Source: Clostridia bacterium (lineage in GTDB: Bacteria; Bacillota; Clostridia; TANB77; CAG-508). Taken from it: a stretch of DNA of 64,000 nt. A program made the translations under genes and the position numbers. The notes beneath the pieces were generated by a model. It ran no database searches and was not told where the DNA came from. It was given only the letters and a program-made list of their open reading frames with translations. The stretch covers positions 62,001-126,000 of the forward strand of contig JAFWDV010000003.1 of assembly GCA_017515985.1 (NCBI GenBank), given 5' to 3'. Shown here piece by piece: positions 33,048-60,579 of the stretch (position 1 is its first letter; every line of letters begins with the position of its first letter).

Positions 33048-33059
33048 AGAAATTTTGGG

Positions 33060-33090
33060 GACGGAGGAAAAAATTCCTTCGTCTTTTTTT
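33060..33090. terminator. terminator between flippase and feoB, containing a GGGGACGG repeat
   Basis: GACGGAGGAA at 33060-33069 pairs with TTCCTTCGTC at 33074-33083 (one G.T pair), loop AAAA, then seven T. The preceding TTTTGGGGACGGA (33053-33065) is one copy of the dispersed repeat. Confidence 0.8.
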
Positions 33091-33095
33091 CTATT

Positions 33096-35036
33096 TCAAA
33101 CTATTTTTGAAACTAAATTTACAAAAGTGCAAACGATAAATCCACAAAATGTTGGTATTGCAAAGCCTAGCAAAGCCCATTTGGTTGAGCCACTTTCTTT
33201 TTTTATACTAATAAGCGTGGTGCTGCAAGGAAAATGAAGCAAGCAGAAAAGCATTGTGTTTATAGCGGTGACTATAGTCCAACCATTAGCTTTCAAAACT
33301 TCAGCAATTGTGGAGATATCTTCTAAATCAACAAGAGTATTGTTTCCTAGGTAACACATTAGTATCAATGGAAGGACTATTTCGTTTGCAGGTAAGCCAA
33401 GTAAAAATGCGGTTAAAATATATCCATCTAACCCCATAATTTTTGCGATAGGATCTAATATATTTGCAATGTAATGTAAAATTGAATTATCACCAATATT
33501 TATGTTTGCGAGTAGCCAAATAATTATTCCGGCAGGTGCTGCTACTTTTATTGCTCTGCCAAGTACAAACAATGCTCTGTCGAAGATTGATCGTATTATA
33601 ATTTTTGATATTTGCGGTTTCCTATAAGGTGGAAGCTCTAAAATAAAATGACTTGGTTCACCTTTTAATAACGTTTTAGATAGTATTTTAGATGTTAAAA
33701 AGGTCATAATTATTCCTATAAAAACGACTAAAACTACTGTCAGTGTGGCTAATAGTGAAGAATACAGCCCTGTAAAAAGAGCTCCTACAAAAATTGTTGA
33801 TATTGTAATTAAAAATGGAAATCTTCCGTTGCATGGAACAAAGCAATTTGTTAACATTGCAATTATTTTTTCACGTTTTGAATCTATTATACGGCACCCT
33901 ACAACTCCAGCTGCATTGCAACCAAATCCCATACACATTGTTAATGCTTGTTTTCCACAAGTCTTACAACACTTAAAACATCTATCTAAATTAAAAGCTA
34001 TTCTAGGTAAAAAGCCTAAATCTTCAAGTATTGTAAAGATAGGGAAGAATATAACCATAGGCGGCAGCATAACGCTTATAACCCATGCGGTTGTTTGATA
34101 AAGCCCATATACAAGTGGATTAATAACAAATTGCGGAATATGCATGTAATTAAGTGCTAGCAAAAGTTTTTCTTGGATAAAATTAAAACCATTTGATAAT
34201 AGCTTCGATGGGTAATTTGCTCCAACGATGGTTAACCAAAAAATGATTGCAAGAAATAGGAGCATAATAGGTATTCCAAATAATTTTGATGTCAATACTT
34301 TATCGAATTTTCTTGTTAATGATTTGTCATCTGAAGCAGTGGTATGTGTTACTTTTTTTGAAACTTCGGAACACTTTTTCACAATGTAAGAAACAAGTTC
34401 AGTGTTATCTCCGTCAAGAATTTTTGATAAATTATTCTCAATTAATTCGGTTTTTTTTACGTCTCTTAGTTTGCTAACATTGTCATTAATACATACATCA
34501 AATATCGTACGTTTTAAATTATAAAGTGTTTTTTTATTGGTTGCATTTGTGCCAACAACAGGAACGCCTAAAGCTTCAGATAAAGCATCTAAATCTATAG
34601 AAATTCCTTTATTTTTGGCTTCGTCAAGTAAATTTACGCAAACTACAACGTTTTGTGTTATTTCCATAATTTGATAAACTAAATTTAAGCTTCGCTCTAA
34701 GCATGTAGCATCTACGATAGCCACGGTAAGATTAGGCTTTTTAAAGCAAATAAAGTCTCTTGCTATTTCTTCTTCTTCAGAATTAGACATTAAGGAATAT
34801 GTACCAGGAATATCATACAATAAAAATGTTTTATTATTATATTTAAGGTATCCACAGGCGTTGGAAACTGTTTTACCAGGCCAGTTTCCTGTGTGTTGAT
34901 GCATACCTGTAAGACTGTTAAAAATGGTTGATTTTCCAACGTTTGGATTTCCTGCAAGTGCAATTAAGTAATCGTAGTTTTCTGAAGTATAATCGTCAAG
35001 TAATGATGTTCCTGTTGAGTTGGAAGTAAGCCCCAT
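33096..35036 (-). CDS. feoB: ferrous iron transporter B
   Basis: The 646-residue protein has an N-terminal GTPase domain with G1 AGNPNVGKSTIFNSLTG near residue 29, the G3 region DIPGTYSLMS, and the NLLDEA G4-like site. Gate-domain membrane segments follow: FGCNAAGVVGCRIIDS, then ELPPYRKPQ, then GLPANEIVLPLI. It imports Fe2+ using GTP. The C-terminus is short, ending soon after the last helix. It follows feoA in the same operon with a 58-nt gap, and the end faces the flippase terminator. No clear Fur or DtxR box was seen upstream of feoA. Confidence 0.95.
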   Translation of the reverse strand: MGLTSNSTGTSLLDDYTSENYDYLIALAGNPNVGKSTIFNSLTGMHQHTGNWPGKTVSNACGYLKYNNKTFLLYDIPGTYSLMSNSEEEEIARDFICFKKPNLTVAIVDATCLERSLNLVYQIMEITQNVVVCVNLLDEAKNKGISIDLDALSEALGVPVVGTNATNKKTLYNLKRTIFDVCINDNVSKLRDVKKTELIENNLSKILDGDNTELVSYIVKKCSEVSKKVTHTTASDDKSLTRKFDKVLTSKLFGIPIMLLFLAIIFWLTIVGANYPSKLLSNGFNFIQEKLLLALNYMHIPQFVINPLVYGLYQTTAWVISVMLPPMVIFFPIFTILEDLGFLPRIAFNLDRCFKCCKTCGKQALTMCMGFGCNAAGVVGCRIIDSKREKIIAMLTNCFVPCNGRFPFLITISTIFVGALFTGLYSSLLATLTVVLVVFIGIIMTFLTSKILSKTLLKGEPSHFILELPPYRKPQISKIIIRSIFDRALFVLGRAIKVAAPAGIIIWLLANINIGDNSILHYIANILDPIAKIMGLDGYILTAFLLGLPANEIVLPLILMCYLGNNTLVDLEDISTIAEVLKANGWTIVTAINTMLFCLLHFPCSTTLISIKKESGSTKWALLGFAIPTFCGFIVCTFVNLVSKIV

Positions 35037-35094
35037 AAAATCACCTCTTATTGTATATATTAATTTGATGAAAAAATTGTGCTAATATTAAAGA

Positions 35095-35316
35095 TTAAAA
35101 AATTAAAATCTTTTTTGCATCCTCAGCTCTTATTGCAATAACACTTCCTCGAACTAGATAAGCTCTTGGATCGCCTAAAACACTGCTAAATATTGGAGTA
35201 ATTTCAGTTTCAGAAATTAATCCTAAATCAAGAAATCTGCGGCGTAGAGCACATGAATATTCTATAGATTTAACAATTGCTGTTTGGTTTAATGTAGCAT
35301 CATATAAAGTTTTCAT
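35095..35316 (-). CDS. feoA: ferrous iron transport protein A
   Basis: The 73-residue SH3-like protein shows the FeoA pattern: IVKSIEYSCALRRRFLDLGL, then ITPIFSSVLGDPRAYLVRG and VIAIRAEDAKKI. FeoA proteins are cytoplasmic partners that regulate FeoB. Ribosome site AAGGGGGA lies just upstream. It is the first gene of the reverse-strand feoAB operon and is divergent from dut; the promoter lies in the 119-nt gap. Confidence 0.92.
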   Translation of the reverse strand: MKTLYDATLNQTAIVKSIEYSCALRRRFLDLGLISETEITPIFSSVLGDPRAYLVRGSVIAIRAEDAKKILIF

Positions 35317-35370
35317 TAAAATATCCCCCTTAAATAAGATATGAATAATATAAAAAAAGTTGAAAATTTG

Positions 35371-35399
35371 TTGAAAAAAATAAGATTGGGTAATATAAT
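35371..35399 (+). promoter_or_regulatory. sigma-A promoter of dut
   Basis: TTGAAA at 35371-35376 and TATAAT at 35394-35399 with a 17-nt spacer, 37 nt before the dut start. Confidence 0.8.
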
Positions 35400-35435
35400 G
35401 ACGCTGTACTTAATTACACAAGGAGGATAAAATAA

Positions 35436-35897
35436 ATGGGAAGAACAAGAGGATTCGAAATAGCAAAAGGTTGGGAGGATAAAGGTGTTAATTTACCAAT
35501 AAGAAAAACAGCAAATTCAGCTGCTTACGATATAGAAGCTGCTGAAGATACAGTAATACCAAGCTTTAAATTAGGTCAAAAACCAACACTTATACCAACA
35601 GGATTAAAATCATATATGCCAGGAGATGAGGTTTTAATGTTATATCCAAGAAGCTCTGGACCAAAGAAACAAGGAATATTGTTCCCACACAGCTCAGGAG
35701 TTATCGATGCTGATTACTATGGAAATGTGGATAATGATGGACATATAATGATTCAATGTATAAATATAAAAGATGAAGATGTTGTAATAAAGAAGGGTGA
35801 AGCAATAGCTCAAGGAATGTTCCAAAAATATTTAGTTGTAGACGACGATAATGCAAACGGAGTTAGAGCGGGCGGATTTGGATCTACAGGAAATTAA
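35436..35897 (+). CDS. dut: dUTP diphosphatase-family protein
   Basis: The 153-residue protein has the five trimeric dUTPase motifs in order: AAYDIEA (motif 1), PRSSGPKKQG (motif 2, usually PRSGLA), GVIDADYYGN (motif 3 with the catalytic Asp), GEAIAQGMF (motif 4), and RAGGFGSTG (motif 5). dUTPase hydrolyses dUTP to dUMP, keeping uracil out of DNA. Motif 2 diverges and has an insertion before motif 3 (ILFPHSS), as in some phage-like or dCTP-deaminase-related forms. It stands alone with its own promoter and terminator. A strong ribosome site (AAGGAGG) precedes it. Confidence 0.8.
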   Translation: MGRTRGFEIAKGWEDKGVNLPIRKTANSAAYDIEAAEDTVIPSFKLGQKPTLIPTGLKSYMPGDEVLMLYPRSSGPKKQGILFPHSSGVIDADYYGNVDNDGHIMIQCINIKDEDVVIKKGEAIAQGMFQKYLVVDDDNANGVRAGGFGSTGN

Positions 35898-35906
35898 TAG
35901 AGATTT

Positions 35907-35940
35907 AAAAGGGCAATTTAAAAATTGCTCTTTTTTCTTT
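35907..35940 (+). terminator. terminator after dut
   Basis: AAAAGGGCAATT at 35907-35918 pairs with AATTGCTCTTTT at 35923-35934 (one G.T pair), loop TAAA, followed by a T-run. Confidence 0.85.
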
Positions 35941-35995
35941 AAAAGTGGTTTGAATATGTTCACAGAAAATTCAAAAACAAATTTAGCAAATCACT

Positions 35996-36024
35996 TTGAC
36001 TTTTGCCAATTTTTGTAGTATAAT
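35996..36024 (+). promoter_or_regulatory. strong sigma-A promoter of the CarD gene
   Basis: TTGACT at 35996-36001 and TATAAT at 36019-36024, 17-nt spacer, nearly consensus. The start codon is 77 nt downstream. Confidence 0.88.
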
Positions 36025-36100
36025 TATTAATGTAGTTGAAAAAGAACGATACCTTTATTAACTTCAATAAAATAAAAGCTAGAGGAAGGAGTTGACTTAC

Positions 36101-36688
36101 ATGTTTAATGTAGGAGACAAAGTCGTATACCCTATGCATGGAGCAGGGACGATAGATTCAATAGACAAGAAGAACATTTTAGATGAAGAGGTAGAATATA
36201 TAAATATTTCAATGCCTGGAGGAGTAAAGGTAATGGTGCCAAGTAATCAGGCATCAAAACAAGGACTTAGAAATATAATTTCTCAGGACGAAGTAGAAAA
36301 AGTATTCTGTGTATTAGAAACAGATGAAACAGCAATGTCTGATAATTGGAATAAAAGATATAGAGATAATATGGACAAGATGAAAAGTGGAGATATCTAT
36401 GAAGTAGCAGATGTTGTAAGAAACCTAAGCTTTAAACAAAAAGAAAAAGGTTTATCTACTGGTGAGAAAAAGATGTTGAACAATGCAAAACAAATATTAG
36501 TAAGTGAGCTAGTGTTAGTTGAAAATACAACAAGCGCTGAAATGGAACAATTAGTAGATAATAAAATTGATGTATCTTTTAAAGAGAACAGAGAAAATAT
36601 TGGTATAGATTCAGAAATTAATACAAGTAGTGTGGTAAGCAAGTTTATACCATTCAATGTTCAAAGTACAGGAACATCTCAAGAGTAA
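36101..36688 (+). CDS. CarD/CdnL-family RNA polymerase-binding regulator
   Basis: The 195-residue protein starts with the family signature MFNVGDKVVYPMHGAGTI, the Tudor-like RNA-polymerase-interacting domain shared with Mfd. An alpha-helical DNA-binding region follows (WNKRYRDNMDKMKSGDIYEV, LSTGEKKMLNNAKQILVSEL). CarD proteins bind the RNA polymerase beta subunit and stabilise open complexes, often at rRNA promoters. The tail after residue 155 is variable. A TTG at 36092 is an upstream alternative, but AGGAAGGAG at 36083-36091 fits the ATG at 36101. Confidence 0.9.
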   Translation: MFNVGDKVVYPMHGAGTIDSIDKKNILDEEVEYINISMPGGVKVMVPSNQASKQGLRNIISQDEVEKVFCVLETDETAMSDNWNKRYRDNMDKMKSGDIYEVADVVRNLSFKQKEKGLSTGEKKMLNNAKQILVSELVLVENTTSAEMEQLVDNKIDVSFKENRENIGIDSEINTSSVVSKFIPFNVQSTGTSQE

Positions 36689-36691
36689 TTT

Positions 36692-36764
36692 ATATGGGTA
36701 GATTCTATAATGATAGAATACTGCCCATATTTAACGTATAGGGAAGTGATAATACTTTCCTATT
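36692..36764 (+). other. two consecutive hairpins between carD and dnaG
   Basis: The first hairpin pairs ATATGGG (36692-36698) with CCCATAT (36724-36730), continuing inward through ATTCTAT with a bulge. The second pairs ATAGGGAAGT with ACTTTCCTAT (about 36738-36764). Neither has a long T-run, so the role (terminator, processing or attenuation before dnaG-rpoD) is uncertain. Confidence 0.5.
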
Positions 36765-36869
36765 AATTAACTTAAGGCAAACAATGGCAATAAATTATGT
36801 AAATTCTAGGAGGATTTCCTTAATTTGTGTCGAATTATATAATATGGCAATGGAGGAATATTAATTTAG

Positions 36870-44661: not shown

Positions 44662-45570
44662 ATGAAAGTTAACAATTTTATTAGAAACGAAAGATCATTG
44701 CTCATAATATTTATGATATTTTTGGTAGCAATAATACTGACAGGATGTAAGAAAACAAATGATGAAAAGAAAGTTTATGACAAAGAGAATGAAGTTATTC
44801 AAAATACAACAAATCAAGCAAATGAGATTGAAACGAACGAGGTTAATGGAAATACAAAGGATAATACATTAGAAAATAATGTAGAAAATCAAGTAACAAA
44901 CAACTTAATAAAAGATAGTAGCAAAAAAATAGTATATGCACTATATACGGTTGAGGATAGTTACGATGTTCCGTACGGCGAAGGTAAATCATATCAGGTT
45001 AAGTATAAATATAAAATTCCTCAAATAAATATGAATTCGGAAGATGCTGAAAGAATTAACGGTAAAATATTAGAGCTACTTAAGCCAACATATGATGATT
45101 ACCAAAAATTAAAACAAAGTGGATGTTCTAAAATTGAATATGCATACCATAAGAATGGAAATGTATTGTCATTGGTAATTGCAGAATTTTGGGATGGTGG
45201 AAGCATCGAAAGACAAGCATATAATATCAACATGGAAACAGGTAAAGAAGTAACTAATGCAGAGCTTCTACAGAAAAAAGGAATATCTGAAACTGAGTTT
45301 CCAAGTAAATTATCTAATATACTGAATGAAAAGTTTAAAGGAATGTATACACCTAGTGCTGAAATGTCAGACCCAGATACAGTTGAAATATTTAATGCAC
45401 AATACAAAAGAACAATTGCATTGGAAAATTGTTCAACAACCAATGAAATGTATTTAAATGCTAATAATAATTTATGTGTAATTGTAACTAGGTATAATGT
45501 GGCTGGACCAGGTTCTACAGAGATTATTGTTAATATGGACAACAACAGTATATTTGCTCAAGAATCTTAA
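44662..45570 (+). CDS. lipoprotein, DUF3298/PdaC-like C-domain
   Basis: The 302-residue protein has a lipoprotein signal peptide with lipobox ILTGC near residue 29, then KKTNDEKKVYDKENEV. An Asn/Glu/Thr-rich spacer reaches about residue 95. The C-terminal domain (VYALYTVEDSYDVPYGEG, KYKIPQINMNSEDAERIN, LSLVIAEFWDGGS) has the strand order of DUF4163/DUF3298 domains of RsiV and PdaC. The match is by pattern only. It is the first of three lipoproteins, located after PhoP-box-like sites, so control by the adjacent two-component system is likely. Confidence 0.65.
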   Translation: MKVNNFIRNERSLLIIFMIFLVAIILTGCKKTNDEKKVYDKENEVIQNTTNQANEIETNEVNGNTKDNTLENNVENQVTNNLIKDSSKKIVYALYTVEDSYDVPYGEGKSYQVKYKYKIPQINMNSEDAERINGKILELLKPTYDDYQKLKQSGCSKIEYAYHKNGNVLSLVIAEFWDGGSIERQAYNINMETGKEVTNAELLQKKGISETEFPSKLSNILNEKFKGMYTPSAEMSDPDTVEIFNAQYKRTIALENCSTTNEMYLNANNNLCVIVTRYNVAGPGSTEIIVNMDNNSIFAQES

Positions 45571-49232: not shown

Positions 49233-49265
49233 CTTCGCTCTAAAAAATTAAAGGAGGAATTTTAT

Positions 49266-49970: not shown

Positions 49971-49997
49971 TTGAAAAATTAGCGTAAGCTGTCTGCC

Positions 49998-50026: not shown

Positions 50027-50073
50027 AATGTATATGTTTTAAAGCCAAAAATATAAAGGAGTTAAGATTTATA

Positions 50074-53000
50074 ATGAATGAGCTTTATAAAGATTTACTC
50101 GAGAATAAAAAGTTTAAAGAAATCATAGAAAATATAGATAAGAAAAATGGCCCGATAGTTATATCGGGCTTATCTGACGTGGGTGAAATTCAACTTGTTT
50201 CAGGTATAAAAGAGGCTACAAAGAAAAATATATGTATAGTTACGTACAACGAGATACAAGCAAAACGCATTGCACGTGATTTAAAGTATTTTATGGATGA
50301 TGTGCAGATTTTTCCAAAGAGAGAGATTGCAACTTATGATTACACCGTAGCAAGTAAGGATTTACCATATGAAAGAATAGATGTTTTAAACAAAATAGCT
50401 GAAAACAAAGCATGCGTTATAGTTACAACAATAGAAGCTGTAATGCAAAAAATGATTAGTAATAAAACATTATACAAAAATATAATAAAACTTAAAGTAG
50501 GTAACGAATGTAAGATTGATGACTTGAAAAGGTATTTGCTTAAGCTTGGATATGAGCGCTCAGATATGGTAGAAGGAAGGGGAATGTTTGCAATAAGAGG
50601 TGGTATTGTAGATATTTCTCTTGATGATAAATATGGTATTAGGATTGAGTTTTGGGGAGACGAAATTGATTCTATCAGAAGGTTTGAAATATTGTCTCAA
50701 AGATCAACGGAAATGAGCGAAGCAATAAGTATATATCCAGCTCATGAGTTTATTTTAGAGTCTGATTTTGAAGATTTAAAAAAGAAAATTGATGACTATG
50801 AAAAATGTACTGAAGAGGATAAAGAGCTAATACTAGAGGGGGACTACTTAAGTAAGGTTGATAAATATTTTGACTTTTTTTATGAGAATCAGAGCAGTTT
50901 CTTAGATTACATTAAAGAAAAGTATTTAGTAGTTTTTGATGAAGAAACCAAAATAAAGCAAAGAATAGATAATATAAAAGTTGATAATAATAATTTAGTT
51001 AAAACGCTTGTAGATAAGGAAAAAGTTGTTCCTGACGCTATAGAGCATATATGCAATTTTGAATATAATTTGGATGATATAAATTATATCAATCTTGAAA
51101 AAACAGATGTAGCATTCGGAAATAACATTTATTATTTTAAGTATAGAGATGTAAATTATTATAAAGCAGAAACTGAAATATTACTTAACAGTTTAAGGGA
51201 AGCTATAGATTTAAAAAAGAAAACAATAATACTTGGTGGAACTGAGGAAAATGCCAGAAAAATCTCACTTCTTTTAACAGATAATGATATTAATCATAGA
51301 TTTTCAAAAGAGCTTAAAGATGTGAAGAACGGTGAAATTGTTGTTTCTGTTGGAGCGTTATCTTCTGGTTTTGAATGTTCAGATACTAAGACATTAGTTA
51401 TTAGTAGTGATGAATTTTTTGAAACCAAAACTAAAAAGAAAAGGGCTAATAATGTTTTCAAGCAAAGCGAAAAAGTTGTATATGCCGATTTAAAGATTGG
51501 CGATTATGTAGTTCATAAAATTCACGGAATAGGGCAATATATAGGAGTGGATACAGTTACAACTGTTGATACAACAAAGGATTATATTAAAATTCGATAT
51601 AGAGATGATGATATTTTATATGTTCCAACTAGCTCTTTAGATAGTGTAAGGAAATATGTTGGTGGTGGCGAAGGAACACCTAAAATATATAAACTTGGTG
51701 GAAAAGATTGGTCGAATACTAAAGCTAGAGTTAAAAGCAATTTAAGAGCAGTTGCTAAAGAATTGATTGAACTTTATGCAAAAAGGCAGAAGGCAAAAGG
51801 TCATGCATTTTCTCCAGACAACGAGTGGCAAACTCAATTTGAAAATAGCTTTCAGTATGTTGAAACAGATGATCAGCTAAGATGTATACAAGAAGTTAAA
51901 AAGGATATGGAAAGTGAAAAGCCAATGGATAGACTTCTTTGTGGCGATGTTGGTTATGGTAAAACAGAAGTAGCCATAAGAGCAACGTTTAAGGCTGTTT
52001 TAGATCAAAAGCAGGTTGTTTATTTAGTTCCAACTACTGTACTTGCTGAACAACAATATCAAAACTTTAAAGAGAGAATGAGTGAATATCCAATAAAAAT
52101 TGAGGTTTTGAATAGATTTAAAACTAAAAAGCAACAGGATGACATTGTAAAAAAATTAAAACTTGGCGAATTGGATGTTGTTATTGGAACACATAGGGTT
52201 TTAAGTAAAGATGTTGAGTTTAAGGATTTAGGACTTTTGATAATTGACGAAGAGCAAAGATTTGGTGTGAAGGATAAAGAAAAGATTAAGCAGTTAAAAA
52301 ATACGGTAGATGTACTTACAATGACGGCAACACCGATTCCAAGAACGCTTCATATGTCAATTGTTGGAGTTAGAGATATGTCTGTTATATATGAGCCTCC
52401 TCAAAATCGTAAACCTGTTCAAACTTATGTTATGGAATATGACCCTGAGATTGTAAGGGAATCTATAATTAAAGAGCTTGAGCGTGGTGGACAAATTTAT
52501 TACTTATATAATAATGTTGAGAATATTGCAAAAAAAGCTGCAGAGATATCAAATTTGGTAGATGAAGCCAAAGTTGCTTTTGCTCATGGTAAAATGACAG
52601 GTAGCGAAATTGAAGAAATAATGGAGGATTTCGTTAATAAAAAGACGAATGTGCTTGTCTGTACAACAATTTTAGAATCTGGTATTGACATTCCAAATGC
52701 AAATACTATAATCGTAGAAAATGCTGAAAGATTAGGTTTGGCACAGCTTTATCAGATAAGAGGTAGAGTTGGTAGAAGTGATAGACAGGCATATGCATAT
52801 ATTATGTATAAACGTGATAAACTACTATCTGAAGTAGCAAGTAAACGTCTTAAATCTATAAGAGAATTTACTGAGTTTGGCTCTGGATTTAAAATTGCTA
52901 TGCGTGATTTGGAAATAAGAGGAGCTGGAAGTTTGCTTGGTGAGATTCAGCATGGCCATATGGAGCAAGTAGGATATGATATGTATTGTAAGCTTCTTGA

Positions 53001-53496
53001 CGAAGTCGTAAAAGAAATGCAAGGATACGAAGTTGAAGAAGATATTGAAATTCAGATTGATATAGATATTTCAAGCTATATTCCTGATGAGTATATATCG
53101 GATTCTTCGCAAAAAATAGAAATATATCAAGATATTGCTACTTGCGAGTCAGAAGCGGATATTCAAGATGTTATTGATGAGATAATTGATAGATATGGTG
53201 TTATGCCAGAAGAACTTGAAAATCTGATTGAAATTGCTAGAATAAAGATTTTGTGCAAGAAGGCTGGTTGTATTAAAATAGCTCAAAGAGCAGATAATTT
53301 TGTTTTTTATTTTAATCAAAAGAGCTTCAATTTAGATATTTCAAAGCTAGTAGAAAAATATAAAAACAAAATAATGTTTTCTCAAGGTATGGATCCATAT
53401 ATAACTATAAAAGCTGGAGCTACTGAGAATAGCGACAAACAAAATTTACAAATCATAAAGGAATTCTTAAAATTTGGGGACGGACTCAAAATTTAA
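50074..53496 (+). CDS. mfd: transcription-repair coupling factor
   Basis: The 1140-residue protein releases stalled RNA polymerase and recruits UvrA. It has the UvrB-like N-terminal region (GPIVISGLSDVGE, later RGGIVDISLDDKYGI). The RNA-polymerase-interacting domain lies near 470-530 (KIGDYVVHKIHGIGQYIGVD), the helicase Walker A near 624 (CGDVGYGKTEVA), and the DEEQ box near 722 (LLIIDEEQRFGVK). Motifs TATPIPRTLHMS, TTILESGIDIPNANT and QIRGRVGRSDRQAY follow, then the C-terminal TRCF domain. The last codons (KFGDGLKI) come from a dispersed repeat, so the C-terminus has probably been replaced or extended. Confidence 0.97.
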   Translation: MNELYKDLLENKKFKEIIENIDKKNGPIVISGLSDVGEIQLVSGIKEATKKNICIVTYNEIQAKRIARDLKYFMDDVQIFPKREIATYDYTVASKDLPYERIDVLNKIAENKACVIVTTIEAVMQKMISNKTLYKNIIKLKVGNECKIDDLKRYLLKLGYERSDMVEGRGMFAIRGGIVDISLDDKYGIRIEFWGDEIDSIRRFEILSQRSTEMSEAISIYPAHEFILESDFEDLKKKIDDYEKCTEEDKELILEGDYLSKVDKYFDFFYENQSSFLDYIKEKYLVVFDEETKIKQRIDNIKVDNNNLVKTLVDKEKVVPDAIEHICNFEYNLDDINYINLEKTDVAFGNNIYYFKYRDVNYYKAETEILLNSLREAIDLKKKTIILGGTEENARKISLLLTDNDINHRFSKELKDVKNGEIVVSVGALSSGFECSDTKTLVISSDEFFETKTKKKRANNVFKQSEKVVYADLKIGDYVVHKIHGIGQYIGVDTVTTVDTTKDYIKIRYRDDDILYVPTSSLDSVRKYVGGGEGTPKIYKLGGKDWSNTKARVKSNLRAVAKELIELYAKRQKAKGHAFSPDNEWQTQFENSFQYVETDDQLRCIQEVKKDMESEKPMDRLLCGDVGYGKTEVAIRATFKAVLDQKQVVYLVPTTVLAEQQYQNFKERMSEYPIKIEVLNRFKTKKQQDDIVKKLKLGELDVVIGTHRVLSKDVEFKDLGLLIIDEEQRFGVKDKEKIKQLKNTVDVLTMTATPIPRTLHMSIVGVRDMSVIYEPPQNRKPVQTYVMEYDPEIVRESIIKELERGGQIYYLYNNVENIAKKAAEISNLVDEAKVAFAHGKMTGSEIEEIMEDFVNKKTNVLVCTTILESGIDIPNANTIIVENAERLGLAQLYQIRGRVGRSDRQAYAYIMYKRDKLLSEVASKRLKSIREFTEFGSGFKIAMRDLEIRGAGSLLGEIQHGHMEQVGYDMYCKLLDEVVKEMQGYEVEEDIEIQIDIDISSYIPDEYISDSSQKIEIYQDIATCESEADIQDVIDEIIDRYGVMPEELENLIEIARIKILCKKAGCIKIAQRADNFVFYFNQKSFNLDISKLVEKYKNKIMFSQGMDPYITIKAGATENSDKQNLQIIKEFLKFGDGLKI
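53469..53496 (+). repeat. dispersed repeat copy inside the mfd 3' end
   Basis: GGGGACGGACTC at 53476-53487 is flanked by near-palindromic AAAATTT and AAAATTT. It is translated as the last eight residues of Mfd plus the stop. Confidence 0.88.
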
Positions 53497-53531
53497 TATT
53501 AACATATTTCTGATTTATTTGGAGGTAAATA

Positions 53532-54323
53532 ATGCAAGTTATTACGAGTAAAGATAATGAATTAGTTAAAAATATAAAAAAGTTAAAGGAAAAGAAATAT
53601 AGAGATTCTACTGGAAAATATATAGTTGAGGGCATCAAGATGATAGAGGAAGCGATCAATGAAAAAGCAGAAATCGAGAGTATAGTGATTTGCGAAGATT
53701 GCATAAAGGATGGCTCTATTGATAAAAAGCTTATGTATGAAATAGCAAAACTTAATTGTATATATGTTACAAGTAAAATATTTGGGCTTATTACAGATGT
53801 ATCCAATCCGCAAGGAATATTGGCCGTTGTAAAAAGAAACATCAATAATCAAAAAATCAACTATGAAGAAGATGTAATTATTGTTTTAGATGGAATTCAA
53901 GATCCTGGTAACTTAGGAACAATTTTAAGAACAGTGGATAGTGCTAATTTAAAGCAAATAGTATTGTCGAAAGAAACAGCAGATGTTTTTAATTCAAAAG
54001 TTGTTCGTTCCACAATGGGAGCAATTTTCAGATTAAATATTATAAGATCTGATGACTTAGTCGCTGATTTGTTAAAAATGAAAAAGAATGGCTATGGTGT
54101 TGTTGTAACAGCACTTGATACTGATGATAGTGTATATGATATAGATTACATGAAAAAGGCTATAGTAATTGGTAATGAAGCTAATGGTGTTTCAAAAGAA
54201 GTTCAAGATATAGCTGATAATAAGGTAAAAATTCCAATGCTTGGAAAAACAGAAAGCCTTAATGCATCAGTAGCAGCAGGAATTATGGTATATGAATATG
54301 TAAGAAAAAAATTAGGAAAATAA
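53532..54323 (+). CDS. TrmH/SpoU-family RNA 2'-O-methyltransferase
   Basis: The 263-residue protein has the N-terminal substrate-binding domain (KKYRDSTGKYIVEGIKMIEE) and the SPOUT methyltransferase domain with trefoil-knot motifs. Motif 1 is DGIQDPGNLGTILRTVDSAN, motif 2 is IVIGNEANGVSKEV, and motif 3 is IPMLGKTESLNASVAAGIM. Members methylate the ribose of 23S rRNA or tRNA with SAM; the exact target is not determined. It follows mfd by 35 nt with SD TGGAGG. A terminator shared with the reverse gene ends it. Confidence 0.92.
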   Translation: MQVITSKDNELVKNIKKLKEKKYRDSTGKYIVEGIKMIEEAINEKAEIESIVICEDCIKDGSIDKKLMYEIAKLNCIYVTSKIFGLITDVSNPQGILAVVKRNINNQKINYEEDVIIVLDGIQDPGNLGTILRTVDSANLKQIVLSKETADVFNSKVVRSTMGAIFRLNIIRSDDLVADLLKMKKNGYGVVVTALDTDDSVYDIDYMKKAIVIGNEANGVSKEVQDIADNKVKIPMLGKTESLNASVAAGIMVYEYVRKKLGK

Positions 54324-54324
54324 A

Positions 54325-54368
54325 AAAAAGAGAAGATTTAAACTAAATGTCTAAATCTTCTTTTTTTA
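54325..54368. terminator. bidirectional terminator
   Basis: AGAAGATTTA at 54331-54340 pairs perfectly with TAAATCTTCT at 54352-54361; an A-run precedes and a T-run follows, serving the convergent genes. Confidence 0.88.
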
Positions 54369-54372
54369 TAAC

Positions 54373-55812
54373 TTATTTAATCTTTGTTATTTTATTTTTT
54401 TTGAATAATACAATAGCAACAATTGCTGTAACACCAATAATGCTGAATATCAATGTTTTTTCACCTGTATCTGGAAATACTGGTGGTTTTTCTTCGTTTT
54501 CTGAATTATCAGGATTTACTGCATCGTCTATTCCGTCAAAGTTGAAATCCTTTGATCCGTAGAAGAACATAAACCATTTTCCAGAATCTGGATAAACGTG
54601 TGCTTTAGTAATAGTTATACTTTCTAATGGAAGATATTTGCCATTTTCTGTATCAAGTTCTGCATACAGATAGTAATATGCGTTATGTGTTAAATCTTTG
54701 TAATTAATTAAATTTTCTTGTGTACTATATCCATTATATTTATTGGCTTCAACGGTTTTATCAAATACAGCATTTGTATCTTTTTTTGCAAAATTATTTA
54801 AGTTAGCAAATCCAGATGCTTCATTATTTTTTAAACTATTTAAGATAGAAGTATCTGTAATTCTTCCTATTTTGAAATGTATTTTTCTTGTTACATCATC
54901 GTCCTTTAAATTATATGGAAGATTTAAGTATAGATTACTAGAATCATATGCTGAAAATGACAATCCACTGAATTTATTATAGGCGCTTAAATCAGGTTTT
55001 ATCAACTTAACATCTGCAATTTTTTTGGGATTAGAAGAGTCAGATCTATCAACAATATGAATATAGTAATCTTTATTCAATTCTACTTGGATTTTTCCTA
55101 GACGTAATGATGATTTGTAAGTACTATCCTTTTCTGTTAATCCGTAAAGACGTATTGAAGAATCATAAGGTGTTGATGGATTTGAATCAACAAAATATTC
55201 ATATCTTCCGCCACTTGGCAAACCTGAAACAATTAAATTACTATCGTCGCATGTAGCTGTAATATTACTATCTATTGGATCTAGATCTGCTGGAGTATCT
55301 GAATCTGGTTCTGAGTCACCAACAACTGTGATTTTTAGTTTGTATTTTTCGTCTGCTTCGCCAGCTAATGTAAGTTCAGCTTGTCCTGCCTTTTGAGCTG
55401 TGAATGTACTACCATTTACCAAAACAATAGATGAATCAGATGAGTTTTGTATTCTGTATGGTTCATCTGATGTAATTGTAAGGCTTTGACCAATATTCAT
55501 TATATATGGGGTTGCAATAGTAACTTCTTCATCATCATCGCCGTTTTTCCACCACAAATAATCAAATTTTGGTTTTACGTTCACGTCAGTGAATGTTCTT
55601 GTCATTTTTTTGTTTTCTGTATCTACTGTATATTGTCTTCCATGAAAATCTGTCACTGCTTCATCAGGTAAGTCAACCTGATATGTAATGGTAACATCCA
55701 TTGATCCATCGGATTTTAAATCACCATATTGAACTTCAGCTGCATAGCTACGTATTGTTAGTGCTAGAAATAAAATTGCAACTAACAAACTTAATTTTAA
55801 TAGTTTTTTCAT
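54373..55812 (-). CDS. cell-wall surface protein with FPDTG sorting-like signal
   Basis: The 479-residue protein has a signal peptide (LLKLSLLVAILFLALTIRSY, cleavage near AAE). A beta-rich N-terminal domain is followed by a Big2-like Ig fold (residues about 105-165; VNGSTFTAQKAGQAELTLAG) and a large central domain without recognised family. An EF-hand-like DFNFDGIDDAV leads to Pro/Glu-rich EEKPPVFPDTGEK and a C-terminal hydrophobic helix with basic end (IFSIIGVTAIVAIVLFKKNK). The tail layout is that of sortase substrates, but the motif is FPDTG instead of LPXTG. No sortase gene is in the window. Confidence 0.75.
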   Translation of the reverse strand: MKKLLKLSLLVAILFLALTIRSYAAEVQYGDLKSDGSMDVTITYQVDLPDEAVTDFHGRQYTVDTENKKMTRTFTDVNVKPKFDYLWWKNGDDDEEVTIATPYIMNIGQSLTITSDEPYRIQNSSDSSIVLVNGSTFTAQKAGQAELTLAGEADEKYKLKITVVGDSEPDSDTPADLDPIDSNITATCDDSNLIVSGLPSGGRYEYFVDSNPSTPYDSSIRLYGLTEKDSTYKSSLRLGKIQVELNKDYYIHIVDRSDSSNPKKIADVKLIKPDLSAYNKFSGLSFSAYDSSNLYLNLPYNLKDDDVTRKIHFKIGRITDTSILNSLKNNEASGFANLNNFAKKDTNAVFDKTVEANKYNGYSTQENLINYKDLTHNAYYYLYAELDTENGKYLPLESITITKAHVYPDSGKWFMFFYGSKDFNFDGIDDAVNPDNSENEEKPPVFPDTGEKTLIFSIIGVTAIVAIVLFKKNKITKIK

Positions 55813-55993
55813 TTGAATTCCTCCTTAATTAATTTTCCTACATTATAAAGTATCTAAATATTAATGGCAACGTATGTATGTGAAATGTAATAAAAATGTA
55901 ATATTTATGTAATAATATTTCAAAAAAAACAGTAATATTTTTCTTTTTTGTGAATATATATCTTGTATATACATATGAAAGGGGACATGTTGT

Positions 55994-56260
55994 ATGGGAT
56001 GTCATTATGAAAAAGAATTTAATATTGAGGATAAATCTATTGAAGAGCAAAATCAGGAGCTTATGAACACAATATTGCAAACTAAGAAAGTGATTAAAGA
56101 AGCAAATATAAATTATGAGATGGCTGAAGGAAAACTTATTGATTATTTTTTGTATGTTATGAAAGCAGAGCAAGCAAGACTTGACTACTTAATTAGTAGA
56201 GCAAAGGCAATGGATATTTCTATAGAAATTGGAGAGCAACTAAATATAAAGAACGGTTAA
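55994..56260 (+). CDS. DUF2508 family protein
   Basis: The 88-residue helical, charged protein has the DUF2508 (YaaL-like) pattern: a first helix with EEQNQELMNTILQTKKVI, then GKLIDYFLYVMKAEQARLDY near the end of the domain. It has no signal peptide or membrane helix. In Bacillus the relative YaaL lies next to bofA; here a bofA gene is 1.7 kb downstream, which supports both assignments. The ribosome site AAAGGGG is 9 nt before the ATG. Function is unknown. Confidence 0.8.
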   Translation: MGCHYEKEFNIEDKSIEEQNQELMNTILQTKKVIKEANINYEMAEGKLIDYFLYVMKAEQARLDYLISRAKAMDISIEIGEQLNIKNG

Positions 56261-56289
56261 TTGCAATTTATGTAAAACTGTAATATAAT
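56261..56289 (+). promoter_or_regulatory. sigma-A promoter of the flavoprotein gene
   Basis: TTGCAA at 56261-56266 and TATAAT at 56284-56289 with a 17-nt spacer, 28 nt before the start codon. Confidence 0.8.
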
Positions 56290-56316
56290 TAGCAAAAAAA
56301 TTAAGGGATATGTGTT

Positions 56317-57879
56317 ATGGTAAGAATAAGTAATATAAAAATTAAAGCCGATTATGATGAAGAAGAATTGTTTGACTATATTTGCAAAAAATTTAACATC
56401 AATAAAAATAGTGTAGGGAAGAAAAGAATTGTTAAAAAATCAATTGATGCCCGTAATAAGAAAGATATTTTTTATAATTATGCTGTGGAGATAGAATGTT
56501 CAAATGAAGAAAAAATTAAAGGGGCAGTGAAAATTAAAGAATCACCAGAGCAAAATATAAATGTAAAAAGAAAAAGTAATGTAAGTCCTGTTATTGTTGG
56601 GGCAGGGCCTGCAGGTTTATTTGCAGCGCTTACTTTCGTACAAAATGGTATAAAACCTATTGTTATAGAGCAGGGAAAATGCGTTCAAGATAGGAAAAAA
56701 GATGTAGATGAATTTCTAAAAACAGGCAAGTTAGATGTTTTGTCAAATGTTCAGTTTGGTGAAGGTGGAGCAGGTACGTTTTCAGATGGAAAACTAACAA
56801 GTGGCATACATGATCCTTTATGTAAAAAAGTTTTGCAGGAGTTCTATAATTTTGGTGCTCCAGAGCAAATATTGAACTTAAATAAACCTCATATAGGTAC
56901 TGATAATCTGATTAAAATTATCGAAAATATGAGAAATTATATCATTGAGCATGGTGGCACTTTTTTATTTAATGAAAAAGTAGTTGATTTCGAAATACAG
57001 GATTCTAAAATATGTGCAGTGGTATGTGAAAGTGGTAAAAGATTTGCTACAGATAGCGTAATACTTGCGATAGGCCATAGCGCAAGGACAACTTTTGAAA
57101 AATTATATGAAAAAGGTGTTCATATGGAGAAAAAGAATTTTTCTGTTGGTGTAAGAATTGAGCACAAACAGGAAATGATTAATAAATCTCAATATGGTGA
57201 TGAAACAAAGTTAAAATTACCACCTGCAGAATATAAACTTGCTTATCACGGTGAGGATAGATCATGCTACACATTTTGTATGTGTCCAGGGGGAACAGTT
57301 ATAGCTTCTTCAAGCGAAGAAAATACGATAGTAACAAATGGGATGAGTAAGTTTGCTCGTGACGGAGAAAATGCAAATAGTGCAGTTTTAGTGAATATAA
57401 TGGCTGACGACTTTCAAGGTAATTCACCATTAGAAGGCATGTATTTTCAAAAAGATTTGGAAGAAAAAGCATTTTACTTAGGTGGAGCAAATTATAAAGC
57501 ACCAATTCAACGATATGAGGACTTTAAGGCAAATAGAAAATCTACATATATAGGTAGTGTGAAGCCTACATATATGCCTGGAGTTACACTTTCTAATTTG
57601 AATGAAATACTTCCTGATTTTGTTTCAAAAACGTTGGTGGAAGGAATTGAGCATTTCGATAAATTGATAAGTGGATTTGCAAATCCAGATAGCATTTTAA
57701 CTGGGGTAGAAACAAGAAGTTCATCACCAGTTCAAATTACGAGGGATGAAAATAAGGAGTCAAACGTTAAAGGTGTGTATCCATGCGGAGAAGGCGCTGG
57801 GTATGCTGGAGGAATAATGTCTGCTGCTGTTGATGGTATAAAATGTGCAATTGCCATATTAGAAAAAAAGCAGCTTTAG
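56317..57879 (+). CDS. FAD-dependent oxidoreductase of the COG2509 type
   Basis: The 520-residue flavoprotein has a short alpha/beta N-terminal part, then the FAD-binding PVIVGAGPAGLFAALTFVQ near residue 90. NVQFGEGGAGTFSDGKLTSG follows near 145, then LAIGHSARTTFEKLY, FCMCPGGTVIASSSEE, and the C-terminal ETRSSSPVQITR and YPCGEGAGYAGGIMSAAVDG. It belongs to the uncharacterised dehydrogenase group often annotated as NAD(P)/FAD-dependent oxidoreductase. The substrate is unknown. It has its own promoter and precedes bofA closely. Confidence 0.85.
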   Translation: MVRISNIKIKADYDEEELFDYICKKFNINKNSVGKKRIVKKSIDARNKKDIFYNYAVEIECSNEEKIKGAVKIKESPEQNINVKRKSNVSPVIVGAGPAGLFAALTFVQNGIKPIVIEQGKCVQDRKKDVDEFLKTGKLDVLSNVQFGEGGAGTFSDGKLTSGIHDPLCKKVLQEFYNFGAPEQILNLNKPHIGTDNLIKIIENMRNYIIEHGGTFLFNEKVVDFEIQDSKICAVVCESGKRFATDSVILAIGHSARTTFEKLYEKGVHMEKKNFSVGVRIEHKQEMINKSQYGDETKLKLPPAEYKLAYHGEDRSCYTFCMCPGGTVIASSSEENTIVTNGMSKFARDGENANSAVLVNIMADDFQGNSPLEGMYFQKDLEEKAFYLGGANYKAPIQRYEDFKANRKSTYIGSVKPTYMPGVTLSNLNEILPDFVSKTLVEGIEHFDKLISGFANPDSILTGVETRSSSPVQITRDENKESNVKGVYPCGEGAGYAGGIMSAAVDGIKCAIAILEKKQL

Positions 57880-57924
57880 TTATATTTGTCCATTTTTCCA
57901 TATATAATACTGAGAGGTGTTTTT

Positions 57925-58185
57925 ATGGAAAAATATGCTTTGTTAATATGCGTTGCTTGTATAGTTTTTACAGTTTTTGTTGGAAAAATATTTTCATCAC
58001 CATTAAAAAAAGTATTGAAATTTATACTCAATTCGGTGATGGGAGTTGGGCTAATATGGATCACTAATCTAATTGGGGCAAATTTTAATTTCCACATAGG
58101 ATTAAACTGGTACACAATTATTGCTACTGGATTATTAGGGGTTCCAGGTGTTATTTTAATGATAATATTAAAAGTTTTTGTATAA
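57925..58185 (+). CDS. bofA: pro-sigma-K processing inhibitor BofA-like protein
   Basis: The 86-residue protein has two to three membrane segments and the BofA signature: FILNSVMGVGLIWITNLIGA, then IGLNWYTIIATGLLGVPGVI. In Bacillus BofA holds the SpoIVFB protease inactive in the forespore membrane. Homologues also occur in clostridia. The open frame begins upstream at a TTG at 57886, but GAGAGGTG precedes the ATG at 57925, giving the normal length. It lies 45 nt after the flavoprotein and is probably co-transcribed. Confidence 0.88.
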   Translation: MEKYALLICVACIVFTVFVGKIFSSPLKKVLKFILNSVMGVGLIWITNLIGANFNFHIGLNWYTIIATGLLGVPGVILMIILKVFV

Positions 58186-58213
58186 ATACATCGTATTATT
58201 TTTTATATGGGGA

Positions 58214-58242
58214 TTGATAATTTTAAATTTTTATGGTAAACT
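58214..58242 (+). promoter_or_regulatory. sigma-A promoter of the zinc-ribbon genes
   Basis: TTGATA at 58214-58219 and TAAACT at 58237-58242, 17-nt spacer, TGG before the -10. Confidence 0.65.
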
Positions 58243-58274
58243 TTCACAAAGAAATTTGGGGGAGGTTAATGTTT

Positions 58275-58682
58275 ATGATTTGTAAAAATTGTGGCAAAGA
58301 GATTCCAGATGAAGCTAAATTTTGCAAGTTTTGTGGTGAGGCTACTTCGGAAAATGAGACAAGTGCAAACAATAATGTTGTAGCTCAAAATTCAAATGAA
58401 ACTGTAAAAGTTATATTTCAGAGAAAGAAAAAAATGATGGGTTGGGCTATTCCAATGAGAATTGACATCAATGGTAACAGAGTAGCAAGTCTAAAAAATG
58501 GAGAGTCTTATGAAATTGATTTAGCACCTGGAAAGTATAAAGTTGTAATTGATACAGTTGGAGAAGTTAATCCAACAGAGCTTGAGTTTACACCTGAGAA
58601 CAACAAAGTATATATAACTTTGGTAATGAAAATGGGTCTTGTAACTGGAAGAGGCGTAATAGAATCAATAGTAAAAGAATAA
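58275..58682 (+). CDS. zinc-ribbon protein with C-terminal beta domain
   Basis: The 135-residue protein starts with a zinc ribbon of two CxxC pairs (MICKNCGKEIPDEAKFCKFC), then an Asn-rich spacer and a beta-rich domain (IFQRKKKMMGWAIPMRIDIN, LAPGKYKVVID) resembling DUF2846-like carrier-type folds. No membrane helix was seen. GGAGG at 58261-58265 lies 9 nt before the ATG at 58275; a nearer ATG at 58269 is only 3 nt away, and upstream ATG 58233 is within the promoter. The next gene also carries an N-terminal zinc ribbon, so the two form a small operon. Function is unknown. Confidence 0.7.
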   Translation: MICKNCGKEIPDEAKFCKFCGEATSENETSANNNVVAQNSNETVKVIFQRKKKMMGWAIPMRIDINGNRVASLKNGESYEIDLAPGKYKVVIDTVGEVNPTELEFTPENNKVYITLVMKMGLVTGRGVIESIVKE

Positions 58683-58717
58683 TAAGAAAATAAAGTAAAA
58701 AGAAAAGGAGAATTAAA

Positions 58718-59158
58718 ATGGAAAGTTTTTGTAAAAATTGTGGAGCTGCAATAAGCTCAGATGACAAATTTTGTGAAAGTTGTGGAGCAAAGAATCCAGA
58801 TTATAATGGAGGGAATGAAGTTAGTTCAAACACAGCTACTGTAAATACAGTAGAAAGCACAAATAATCAATACACTGCACAAAATTTTAATAATAATACG
58901 CAAACAACAGGTAAGAAAACATCTGGATTAGCAATAGGAAGTTTAGTATGTTCATTAGTTGGGCTTCTTGTAGCCGGAATGGCTCTAGGAATTGTTGCAA
59001 TATGCCTAAGTATAGCTGCAAAAAATCGTATGAAAACATATCCAAATGAAGGTGGAAAAGGAATGGCAACTGCGGGATTAGTTATTGGTATAATCGATGT
59101 TTCATTTGCTTTATTATGGACTGTAATAAGTGTTTCATCATTATCTTCAATATTCTAA
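58718..59158 (+). CDS. zinc-ribbon DUF4190-type membrane protein
   Basis: The 146-residue protein has an N-terminal zinc ribbon (FCKNCGAAISSDDKFCESCG), an Asn/Thr-rich linker and a C-terminal DUF4190-like membrane part. Two hydrophobic segments (LAIGSLVCSLVGLLVAGMAL, then GLVIGIIDVSFALLWTVISV) flank the loop MKTYPNEGGKGMA. The family is common in Firmicutes and of unknown function. It follows the preceding zinc-ribbon gene by 35 nt with AAAGGAG as ribosome site. Confidence 0.8.
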   Translation: MESFCKNCGAAISSDDKFCESCGAKNPDYNGGNEVSSNTATVNTVESTNNQYTAQNFNNNTQTTGKKTSGLAIGSLVCSLVGLLVAGMALGIVAICLSIAAKNRMKTYPNEGGKGMATAGLVIGIIDVSFALLWTVISVSSLSSIF

Positions 59159-59185
59159 ATTCTAATAAGATTGTTTTATTAGGGA

Positions 59186-59214
59186 TTGATTATTAAGAAA
59201 TTATGTGATAAAAT
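59186..59214 (+). promoter_or_regulatory. sigma-A promoter of the pheST leader
   Basis: TTGATT at 59186-59191 and TAAAAT at 59209-59214 with a 17-nt spacer, just before the T-box leader. Confidence 0.65.
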
Positions 59215-59221
59215 TATGTAC

Positions 59222-59482
59222 ATAAATAAATTTAGCCAATTAAAAAGCAAAGTAGTATGTGCAGAATTGTTTAAGAGAGCTTGAATATTATGCTGGGAGT
59301 TCAAGTAACAAAGTATATATGAAATTTCACTTTTTAGGTTATTTGCTGAAATAATAGTAGGCAGTACGGTTGTTACGTTAAAACTATAATAAGGTATATA
59401 AATGCATTTGAAAATGCTGAATATATAAAATTAGGTGGTACCACGAGCTATTCGTCCTATTTAAGGATGAATAGCTTTTTTG
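59222..59482 (+). promoter_or_regulatory. T-box riboswitch leader of pheST
   Basis: The 353-nt gap before pheS holds a T-box leader. The T-box core AGGTGGTACCACG is at 59433-59445. The intrinsic terminator has a perfect 12-bp stem (GCTATTCGTCCT 59447-59458, AGGATGAATAGC 59464-59475) followed by a T-run. Upstream, a stem I distal hairpin has CTTGAA/TTCAAG arms (about 59280-59305), and TTC at 59326-59328 is the likely Phe specifier codon. Uncharged tRNA-Phe would pair with it and the T-box, disrupting the terminator. Confidence 0.93.
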
Positions 59483-59510
59483 TTTGTACTCCCAAAGAAA
59501 GGATGAGATT

Positions 59511-60557
59511 ATGAAAGAGGAAATTGAGCAAATCAGAGCAAATGCTAAAGAAGAGATTGAAAAAATCGAAGATTTAAAAGCTCTTGTGGACTTAAAAGTA
59601 AAATATCTAGGAAAAAAGGGTGAGCTAACATCAGTATTAAGAGGAATGGGAGCTTTATCAGCAGAAGAAAGACCAGTAATTGGAAGTCTTGTAAATGAGG
59701 TGAGAGACGAGCTTGAAACATTGATTGCTGAAAAAGAAAATGGATTTAAGCAAGCTGAATTAAATAAAAAATTAGAAAAGGAAACTATTGATATAACATT
59801 GCCAAGCAAAAAAGCAATTAGAGGAAGTGAACATCCGCTAAACAGAACAATTGAGGAGATTGAAAATCTATTTATTTCCATGGGATATGAAGTAATAGAT
59901 GGTCCAGAGCTTGAAACGGATGAGTTTTGTTTTGAGAGACTTAATCTTCCAAAGGGACATCCTGCAAGAGATATGCAAGATTCATTCTATATTACAGATG
60001 AATATTTGTTAAGAACGCAAACATCTGCAGTTCAAGCACATACAATGCTAAAATATGCGGAAAGTCAAAAGCCTATAAAAATGATATGTGTAGGAAAAAC
60101 ATATAGAAGAGAAGATGATGCAACACATTCTCATCAATTCTGCCAAGTAGAAGGTTTAGTAATTGATAAGAAGGATAAAAAAGTTTCACTTGCAGACTTA
60201 AAAGGAACACTTGAAGTATTTATGAAAAAAATGCTAGGAGAGAATACTGAATTACGTTTCAGACCAAGCTATTTCCCATTCACAGAGCCTTCATATGAAG
60301 TTGATTGTACATGTTTTAAATGTGGAGGAAAAGGTTGTTCATTATGTAAGCAAACAGGTTGGATAGAAGTTCTTGGATCTGGAATTGTACATCCAAACGT
60401 TTTAAAGATGAACGGATATGACCCAGAAGAGTGGGGCGGATTTGCATTTGGTACTGGAATTGACAGGTTAGCAATGTTTAAATATGGAATTCCAGATATG
60501 AGATATCTGTATGCAAACGATGTTAGATTCTTAAATCAATTTGATAGAAAAGATTAA
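59511..60557 (+). CDS. pheS: phenylalanyl-tRNA synthetase alpha subunit
   Basis: The 348-residue catalytic subunit has an N-terminal coiled-coil ([20 protein letters not shown]) that contacts tRNA. The class II core has [20 protein letters not shown], motif 1 near [11 protein letters not shown], motif 2 [40 protein letters not shown], and motif 3 [17 protein letters not shown]. The four-cysteine insert is seen in some bacterial PheS. The frame is open back to 59484, but AAAGGA before the ATG at 59511 gives the normal start. It is controlled by the T-box and pairs with pheT. Confidence 0.97.
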
Positions 60558-60561
60558 AATA

Positions 60562-60579
60562 GGGACGGACTCATTTTTT
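60562..60579 (+). repeat. dispersed repeat copy between pheS and pheT
   Basis: GGGACGGACTCATTTTTT fills most of the 35-nt gap between pheS and pheT and ends one base before the pheT ribosome site AGGAGG. Confidence 0.9.

Follow-up and report, generated by a model that had tools for sequence, protein, structure and literature searches.

Two subfamilies of REP-like hairpin repeats, probably tied to a RAYT-type Y1 transposase, in the genome of a Clostridia bacterium

The window considered here, a 64,000-nucleotide (nt) stretch of DNA from a Clostridia bacterium, corresponds to C17:62001-126000 of a 1,455,933-base genome (24 contigs, 95.9% complete). It carries six copies of a short G-rich repeat belonging to two subfamilies, type A (GGGGACGGACTCA) and type B (GGGGACGGAGGAA or AGCAA), of a dispersed family that resembles the repetitive extragenic palindromic (REP) elements and is likely to be tied to a REP-associated tyrosine transposase (RAYT) encoded elsewhere in the same genome. 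The first copy in the window, of type B (GAAATTTT-GGGGACGGAGGAA..., 33049..33090, plus strand), lies between the convergent flippase-like gene (plus strand) and feoB (minus strand); it comprises a shortened hairpin followed by a T-run, and is thus terminator-like, with the stablest predicted fold of all the window copies (33040-33095, -8.1 kcal/mol, z -1.6). A type A copy on the minus strand (AAATTT-AGGGACGGACTCATTTTTT, 42336..42360) occupies the divergent gap between ylbJ (minus) and a gene for a PhoB-like response regulator (plus), and taken alone has no predicted fold (0 kcal/mol). The remaining four are on the plus strand. A gene for a PhoR/WalK-like sensor kinase is followed, directly past its stop codon, by a type A copy (AAAAT-GGGGACGGACTC-ATTTTTTAAAGTTTAC, 44449..44481; -3.0 kcal/mol, z -0.8), and the gap after the same gene, ahead of the gene at 44662, contains a type B copy of the AGCAA version (ATTTT-GGGGACGGAGCAA-AAAATTTC, 44560..44585; -1.9 kcal/mol, z -0.3). 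A further type A copy (AAATTT-GGGGACGGACTCA-AAATTT, 53470..53496; -3.2 kcal/mol, z -1.7) provides the terminal codons of mfd (50074-53496; identified as Mfd by TIGR00580), including its stop codon (53494-53496). Finally, a type A copy, AGGGACGGACTCATTTTTT (60556..60580), lies downstream of the stop codon of pheS and upstream of the ribosome-binding site of pheT; the one fold predicted for it is weak and unrelated (-1.4 kcal/mol).

All six copies had been listed in an earlier reading of the window (henceforth the original prediction), and are indeed present at those positions, with shifts of a few bases at most. Unchanged, the core GGGGACGGACTC is found at 44453-44464 and 53476-53487, and a variant with one change, AGGGACGGACTC, at 42343-42354 (minus strand) and 60561-60572; a search of the window allowing up to two mismatches recovers these four against 0.24 expected. 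The 18-nt sequence GGGACGGACTCATTTTTT, which was said to be identical in three copies, is exactly so (42336-42353 in reverse, 44454-44471 and 60562-60579). The proposal of one family with a common core stands as regards a dispersed family, but not as regards its unity: the copies at 33057 and 44565 (GGGGACGGAGG and GGGGACGGAGC) go unmatched even at two mismatches, have only their first ten bases in common with the core, and constitute the second subfamily.

Across the 1.46 Mb genome the pattern GGGACGGA occurs 139 times versus four for the reversed pattern, while GGGACGGACTC with at most one mismatch occurs 63 times versus once for its reversed control, in agreement with the expectation that the core is commoner than chance. 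Read from the last A of GGGACGGA inclusive, the five-base sequence is AGGAA 62 times, ACTCA 51 times and AGCAA 13 times, with other sequences in the remaining 13 copies; exact copies number 51 for type A and 82 for type B. By reading, the consensus of type A is W6-RGGGACGGACTCA-TTTTTT and that of type B GAAATTTT-RGGGACGGAGGAA-AAAATTTC. When copies less than 140 bases apart are joined, the family resolves into 99 places in the genome, as befits the REP-like family that had been suggested, with 61 single copies, 36 doubles and two triples. Thirty-five of the doubles are inverted with their G-strands pointing inward and one is direct, and each triple also includes an inward pair; thus a G-inward inverted pair is seen in 37 of the 99 places and a G-outward pair in none. 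An exact or near partner is seen for 99 copies, and the outer distance of the pair is most often 46-48 nt (37) or 67-71 nt (17), with the qualification that near partners are unreliable in these counts. A search for degenerate partners of the single copies (up to two mismatches) proved unusable, as the reversed control matched 44 of 139. Such dispersed, inverted unit pairs with a short and regular spacing are the trait that characterizes the REP doublets called REPINs. In principle, each half could fold around a loop of about 13 nt, and an inverted pair of halves could make a single long hairpin. Five type A dimers (at C1:14747, C2:9300, C6:21420, C10:56728 and C18:12146 of G000) seem by eye to be nested in another inverted repeat, whose outer arms are GGGACG/GGATG-like, an arrangement that would fit the insertion of one palindrome into a second one. 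The uneven spacing of copies within the window, which had been regarded as telling, is unremarkable at the genome-wide density (P=0.11 for no place in 33 kb; P=0.04 for five or more places in 28 kb).

The original prediction also supposed a RAYT-type Y1 transposase elsewhere in the genome. Just one match to the Y1_Tnp profile was recovered, over the cut-off, in a 249-residue frame (L031) that matches the NF047646 REP_Tyr_transpos model at E 7.2e-19; all of 83 homologues match the same model at E 1e-10 or better. In an alignment of 83 proteins (its own and 82 homologues) N59, H60, H62 and Y120 are invariant; as in the family generally, H60 and H62 would belong to the HUH motif and Y120 would be the catalytic tyrosine. 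The predicted structure (mean predicted local distance difference test score 91, predicted template modelling score 0.76) aligns with 4er8 (a RAYT in complex with a REP hairpin) at a Z of 17.8 over 161 residues and a root-mean-square deviation of 2.8 Å, the comparison covering mainly residues 1-163; the IS608 and ISDra2 transposases come next in the ranking (Z 9-11). The same entry is the sole match by sequence in the PDB at E 0.001. The resident gene is therefore an intact RAYT relative. Its modelled C-terminus is helical and the protein itself yields no helix-turn-helix (HTH) match at E 5; weak HTH matches below the cut-offs are seen around residues 216-261 in seven of ten homologues, and HTH_23 is found in nine of the 83 RAYT homologues. 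The gene is bordered by GGGACGGAGGAAAAAATTTT upstream and by GGGGACGGAGGAAAAAATTTC, inverted, downstream, both being type B units, so that the one Y1_Tnp gene found in the genome is flanked on both sides by the genome's own repeat. The expectation that such a gene would carry the same hairpin on its flanks is thus borne out for type B and finds no match for type A.

We also collected related RAYT genes. The protein has matches in 33 of the 76 close genomes and in 137 of the 391 genomes from the class, its own genome included in both. The flanks of 114 loci were compared: 30 from close genomes (including its own gene), 26 new ones from the class, 18 further close-genome rows, and 40 class rows picked from the better-scoring part, a choice that favours high-scoring homologues. 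L102 and L164 are the same gene, and a similarity filter leaves 111 of the 114. The word GGGAC points inward on both sides in 91 of the 114 loci, as against 13 for the reversed word and 11 for the opposite strand. This loop motif had been recognised in the resident genome before the survey, but it is also supported by a motif-free search for inverted repeats, which scores above the 99th percentile of cross-locus values (338 comparisons) in 64 of the 114 loci; both arms of 61 of these 64 contain GGGAC, compared with six and five for the two control words. A G precedes the GGGAC by which the loci were selected in 51 of 83 loci and follows it in 62 of 83.

The sequence around the loop behaves differently. 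Of 111 filtered loci, 89 carry the motif in both flanks, and the surrounding sequence suffices for a stem test in 83. In this test the longest perfect stem enclosing the loop has a mean length of 6.01 base pairs (bp) within a locus versus 3.07 bp (standard deviation 0.13, maximum 3.54 in 1000 permutations) when arms are swapped between loci. Stems of at least 7 bp are formed in 30 of the 83 loci and in 1.6% of the swapped pairs, and over ten positions the arms differ by 2.4 bases between the two ends of one RAYT and by 6.7 between different RAYTs. Examples are TATATATCAA-GGGGACGGTTCTC-TTGATATATT (L178) and CAGACAA-AGGGACGGAGTTT-TTGTCTG (L109). Thus, most flanks of the 114 related RAYT genes combine a conserved loop (GGGAC...) with a stem that is specific to the particular RAYT yet self-complementary. 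At the level of dispersed copies, the arm-plus-loop pattern of a G011 RAYT (up to one mismatch) has 35 copies in G011, 105 in G014, 12 in G004 and 10 in G005, and is found in none of the other 12 of the 16 genomes of the genus; G001, which lacks the pattern, contains 408 copies of GGGGACGGA. Since the pattern is limited to four genomes despite the abundance of GGGGACGGA in G001, the lineages evidently have their own stem versions. No RAYT was found in G014 (76% complete), with its 105 G011-type units. A RAYT relative in G058 (L161) has other multi-copy inverted repeats (GTCGGACACAAA...) on its flanks, without GGGAC.

Several of the sites occupied in the window are free of the element in related genomes. 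The pheS-pheT gap, with a type A unit in its own genome, is short and without a unit in G001, G006, G010 and G015; in G009 the gap has a hairpin matching the ends of that genome's own RAYT (L098), and in G012 another hairpin. The two units after the sensor kinase gene (44449..44481 and 44560..44585) are absent in G003, G009 and G010, all of which retain the neighbouring TTTACAACTTTTTTACAAC stretch (G009 with a single change); the kinase was found in four of the 16 genomes at the threshold used. A repeated TTTACAACTTT stretch that resembles a Pho box is seen after the same gene at 44480-44510 (L269-L271), ahead of a pst-like gene, and is kept among relatives. The 3' end of mfd contains a GGGAC unit or hairpin in six of the 16 genomes (G000, G001, G003, G010, G011 and G012), in what by reading are five versions; in four of these (G000, G001, G003 and G011) the element is in frame and forms the end of the protein, and the versions in G010 and G011 match the RAYT ends of the same genomes (L107 and L152). 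The mfd end of G004 may hold a remnant of an element, while for G005 none was seen in one comparison and the anchor was missing in the other. Judging from these alignments (L248-L263), the mfd 3' end appears to be a recurrent insertion spot. For the copy at 42343 the neighbouring sequence differs in the relatives, so that no comparison was possible. Gain is a likelier cause of these between-species differences than parallel loss, although it is not proven for each site. As to the suggestion that the REP-like element was spread in trans by an enzyme, the family, the RAYT and the element-free sites are all there, and spread in trans is what we infer from them.

Based on the above, we consider it likely that the repeats are a REP/REPIN population in two subfamilies, linked to a Y1 (HUH) transposase of the RAYT type and, more closely, of the TIRYT or subclass 2.1 kind (see below). 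A number of observations weigh against this. Movement as such was not observed, the comparisons being between species. The resident RAYT falls below the curated NCBIfam cut-off of NF047646 (68.1 versus 80 bits). No window copy folds clearly better than its shuffles (z from 0.9 to -1.7). In 23 of the 114 loci GGGAC is not present on both sides, and in 50 no inverted repeat exceeds the threshold. Covariation between arms in its own genome is nil for type A (4.86 versus 4.85) and slight for type B (6.33 versus 6.06, standard deviation 0.11), as expected because the copies of each type belong to one family; the stem argument therefore rests on the comparison between RAYTs. Lastly, type A ends flank no RAYT that was found in its own genome.

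This last point bears on the origin of type A. RAYTs with ACTCA-loop ends exist elsewhere, namely L104 in G004 and L277 in the genome of L129, and because of them type A looks like the family of another RAYT; a dispersed copy in the latter genome (L129) has the left arm of L277, AAGGGATTTT. Type A is probably the progeny of such a second RAYT, now lost or outside the assembly. The alternative is that the resident RAYT moves both types, so that no second enzyme is needed: there is one Y1 gene in a genome that is almost complete, with both types abundant, and A and B sometimes share one place (C22:74670 and C11:4815). In view of the ACTCA-ended RAYTs and the copy bearing the arm of L277, we regard this as a possible but rather unlikely explanation. 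The contigs L138, L144 and L145, titled Bacilli and Lachnospira, contain an exact type A unit or dimer, which might reflect imprecise titles or a shared element; no RAYT was found in the genomes of L138 and L145, where no candidates were scored. We also considered, and set aside, the exact 18-mer as a sign of wide transfer across phyla. It is found in 22 stretches, seven of them titled outside Firmicutes, where about seven chance matches are expected in such a collection by our own estimate assuming even base composition; in these seven loci GGGACRG is roughly as common as its reversed control (3/5, 2/3, 1/1, 2/2, 1/0, 12/27 and 2/1). In two of the seven, from Pirellulales (L134) and Desulfovibrio (L140), the exact 18-mer has complementary sequence nearby, perhaps as an element of the same kind, or by chance.

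The placement of the copies relative to genes, assigned by an open-reading-frame heuristic, is biased, and upholds the earlier remark that they lie at gene ends or in gaps. Eighty-eight of the 99 places are intergenic, though coding sequence makes up 93% of the window; 64 of these are between co-directional, 19 between convergent and five between divergent genes. The other 11 comprise four within 60 nt of a stop, five within 90 nt of a start and two inside genes. Gene 3' ends are close to the places, at a median of 14.5 nt, and 5' ends farther off, at a median of 73.5 nt. This proximity to 3' ends, together with the stable hairpin and T-run of the copy between the convergent genes at 33049-33090, would be expected if the repeats were ordinary intrinsic terminators, or 3'-end hairpins stabilising mRNA, that are kept for their function, with any likeness to RAYT ends being secondary. 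We find this improbable, as a common 13-nt loop sequence is not a trait of terminators, the majority of places have co-directional genes on their two sides (in one such place, between pheS and pheT, termination would do harm), and the other five window copies fold weakly when taken alone. Moreover, the units are species-specific and also bound the RAYT gene. Even less credible, and in our estimate very improbable, is the view that selection scattered the repeats as signals of a protein-binding or DNA-uptake-like kind, unconnected with transposition, to which the short, dispersed and often inverted core could be attributed, but for which the conservation extending past the core into the arms and the defined dimer spacing, and the same units bordering a transposase gene here and in most relatives examined, leave little room.

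The flanks of the units show a further bias. In 163 flanks of RAYT ends CCTCC occurs 18 times versus once for GGAGG, with ten of the 18 located 15-19 nt from GGGAC, and in 139 flanks from its own genome the counts are ten versus two. CCTCC is the complement of the Shine-Dalgarno sequence, i.e. it marks the Shine-Dalgarno of the next gene on the other strand. Its excess may point to a target preference, or only to how little room operons leave from a stop codon to the following Shine-Dalgarno. CCTCC often lies directly outside the stem, for instance in L104, L106, L110, L152, L153, L178 and L192, and also at 60580-60586 in the window.

Under the preferred interpretation of a REP population tied to a RAYT, each unit would be a half-element, in which an AT-rich arm and its complement enclose a G-rich conserved loop, (R)GGGACGGANNNN, of about 13 nt. 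Two inverted units with their G-strands inward would then constitute the full element, and the transposase gene itself lies between two such units. The enzyme most likely recognises a folded single strand, with the loop serving as the signal of the class and the stem as the lineage-specific part, and would nick and rejoin single-stranded copies. New copies would settle mostly directly after stop codons, where they are tolerated, and the copies in the window, being single halves, are probably decaying.

Comparison with known systems places the enzyme and the repeat somewhat differently. Di Nocera et al. 2013 (PMC3733652), in the text available, describe RAYT-like genes with inverted repeats at their borders, some of the form GGGGWSAS, which they name TIRYTs. 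The TIRtron/TIRYT arrangement is partly shared here, in that a RAYT-like Y1 gene lies between GGGG-rich inverted repeats that are also dispersed, partly as dimers, and GGGGACGG fits the GGGGWS part of the consensus, with G at position 7 where the consensus has A. In that account, however, the repeats are treated as terminal inverted repeats unrelated to REPs, only some being self-complementary, whereas in our case the motif lies in a hairpin loop whose stem differs between RAYTs. In the classification of Quentin et al. 2018 (PMC6006769), as far as its available text goes, most TIRYTs fall in TnpA_Y1 subclass 2.1, the second largest subclass, with HTH-like C-termini; the Y1 core is shared by our enzyme, and the C-terminal part weakly similar to HTH and the flank consensus GGGG[AT][CG]A[CG] are comparable to what we observe. 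That text reports that automatic and manual searches found no REP-like sequences beside subclass 2.1 and calls for further analysis, in contrast to the REP-like hairpins found here. We file the enzyme provisionally, on protein and flank features, as a RAYT of the TIRYT or subclass 2.1 kind.

With the canonical REP/REPIN systems (E. coli TnpA_REP, 4er8; PMC8266576) the repeat has in common the Y1 fold of the enzyme and the dispersed intergenic palindromes with inverted dimers. Canonical units have, in the accessible part of that article, GTAG at the stem foot and mostly short loops, with the GTAG foot and features of the loop and stem acting as determinants; here the motif is within the loop of about 13 nt, and by reading no GTAG or GTGG tetranucleotide is present at the stem foot in the consensus of either subfamily. 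The CGTC REPs, as outlined in the available text of Di Nocera et al. (PMC3733652), have a CGTC end tag, a 4-5 nt loop and no association with a transposase. The present units differ by their longer loop and their location beside a transposase gene, and CGTC appears only as the complement of the in-loop GACG. The repeat would hence represent a new REP architecture, REP/REPIN-like in look and presumably in working, that lies outside the GTAG definition. No account of this hairpin was found by title among the best-ranked papers of an open-licence library, which does not show its absence from print.

More broadly, we give an even chance to the existence of a large and widespread class of REPs beside clostridial RAYTs with a mode of recognition inverted relative to that of classical REPs, in which a near-universal GGGAC loop is read, and a freely drifting but compensating stem keeps the elements of different enzymes distinct. 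New lineages would arise via changes of the stem, and several lineages would independently strike the same 3' ends, such as that of mfd, where the C-terminus is rewritten in frame. The hairpin with a conserved loop and variable stem is a candidate substrate for subclass 2.1, which the available text of PMC6006769 leaves without a recognised REP sequence. It would account for the scattered GGGGAC hairpins of clostridial genomes as RAYT-linked populations, and would offer many natural pairs of enzyme and stem for studying how the specificity of transposases for their hairpins evolves.

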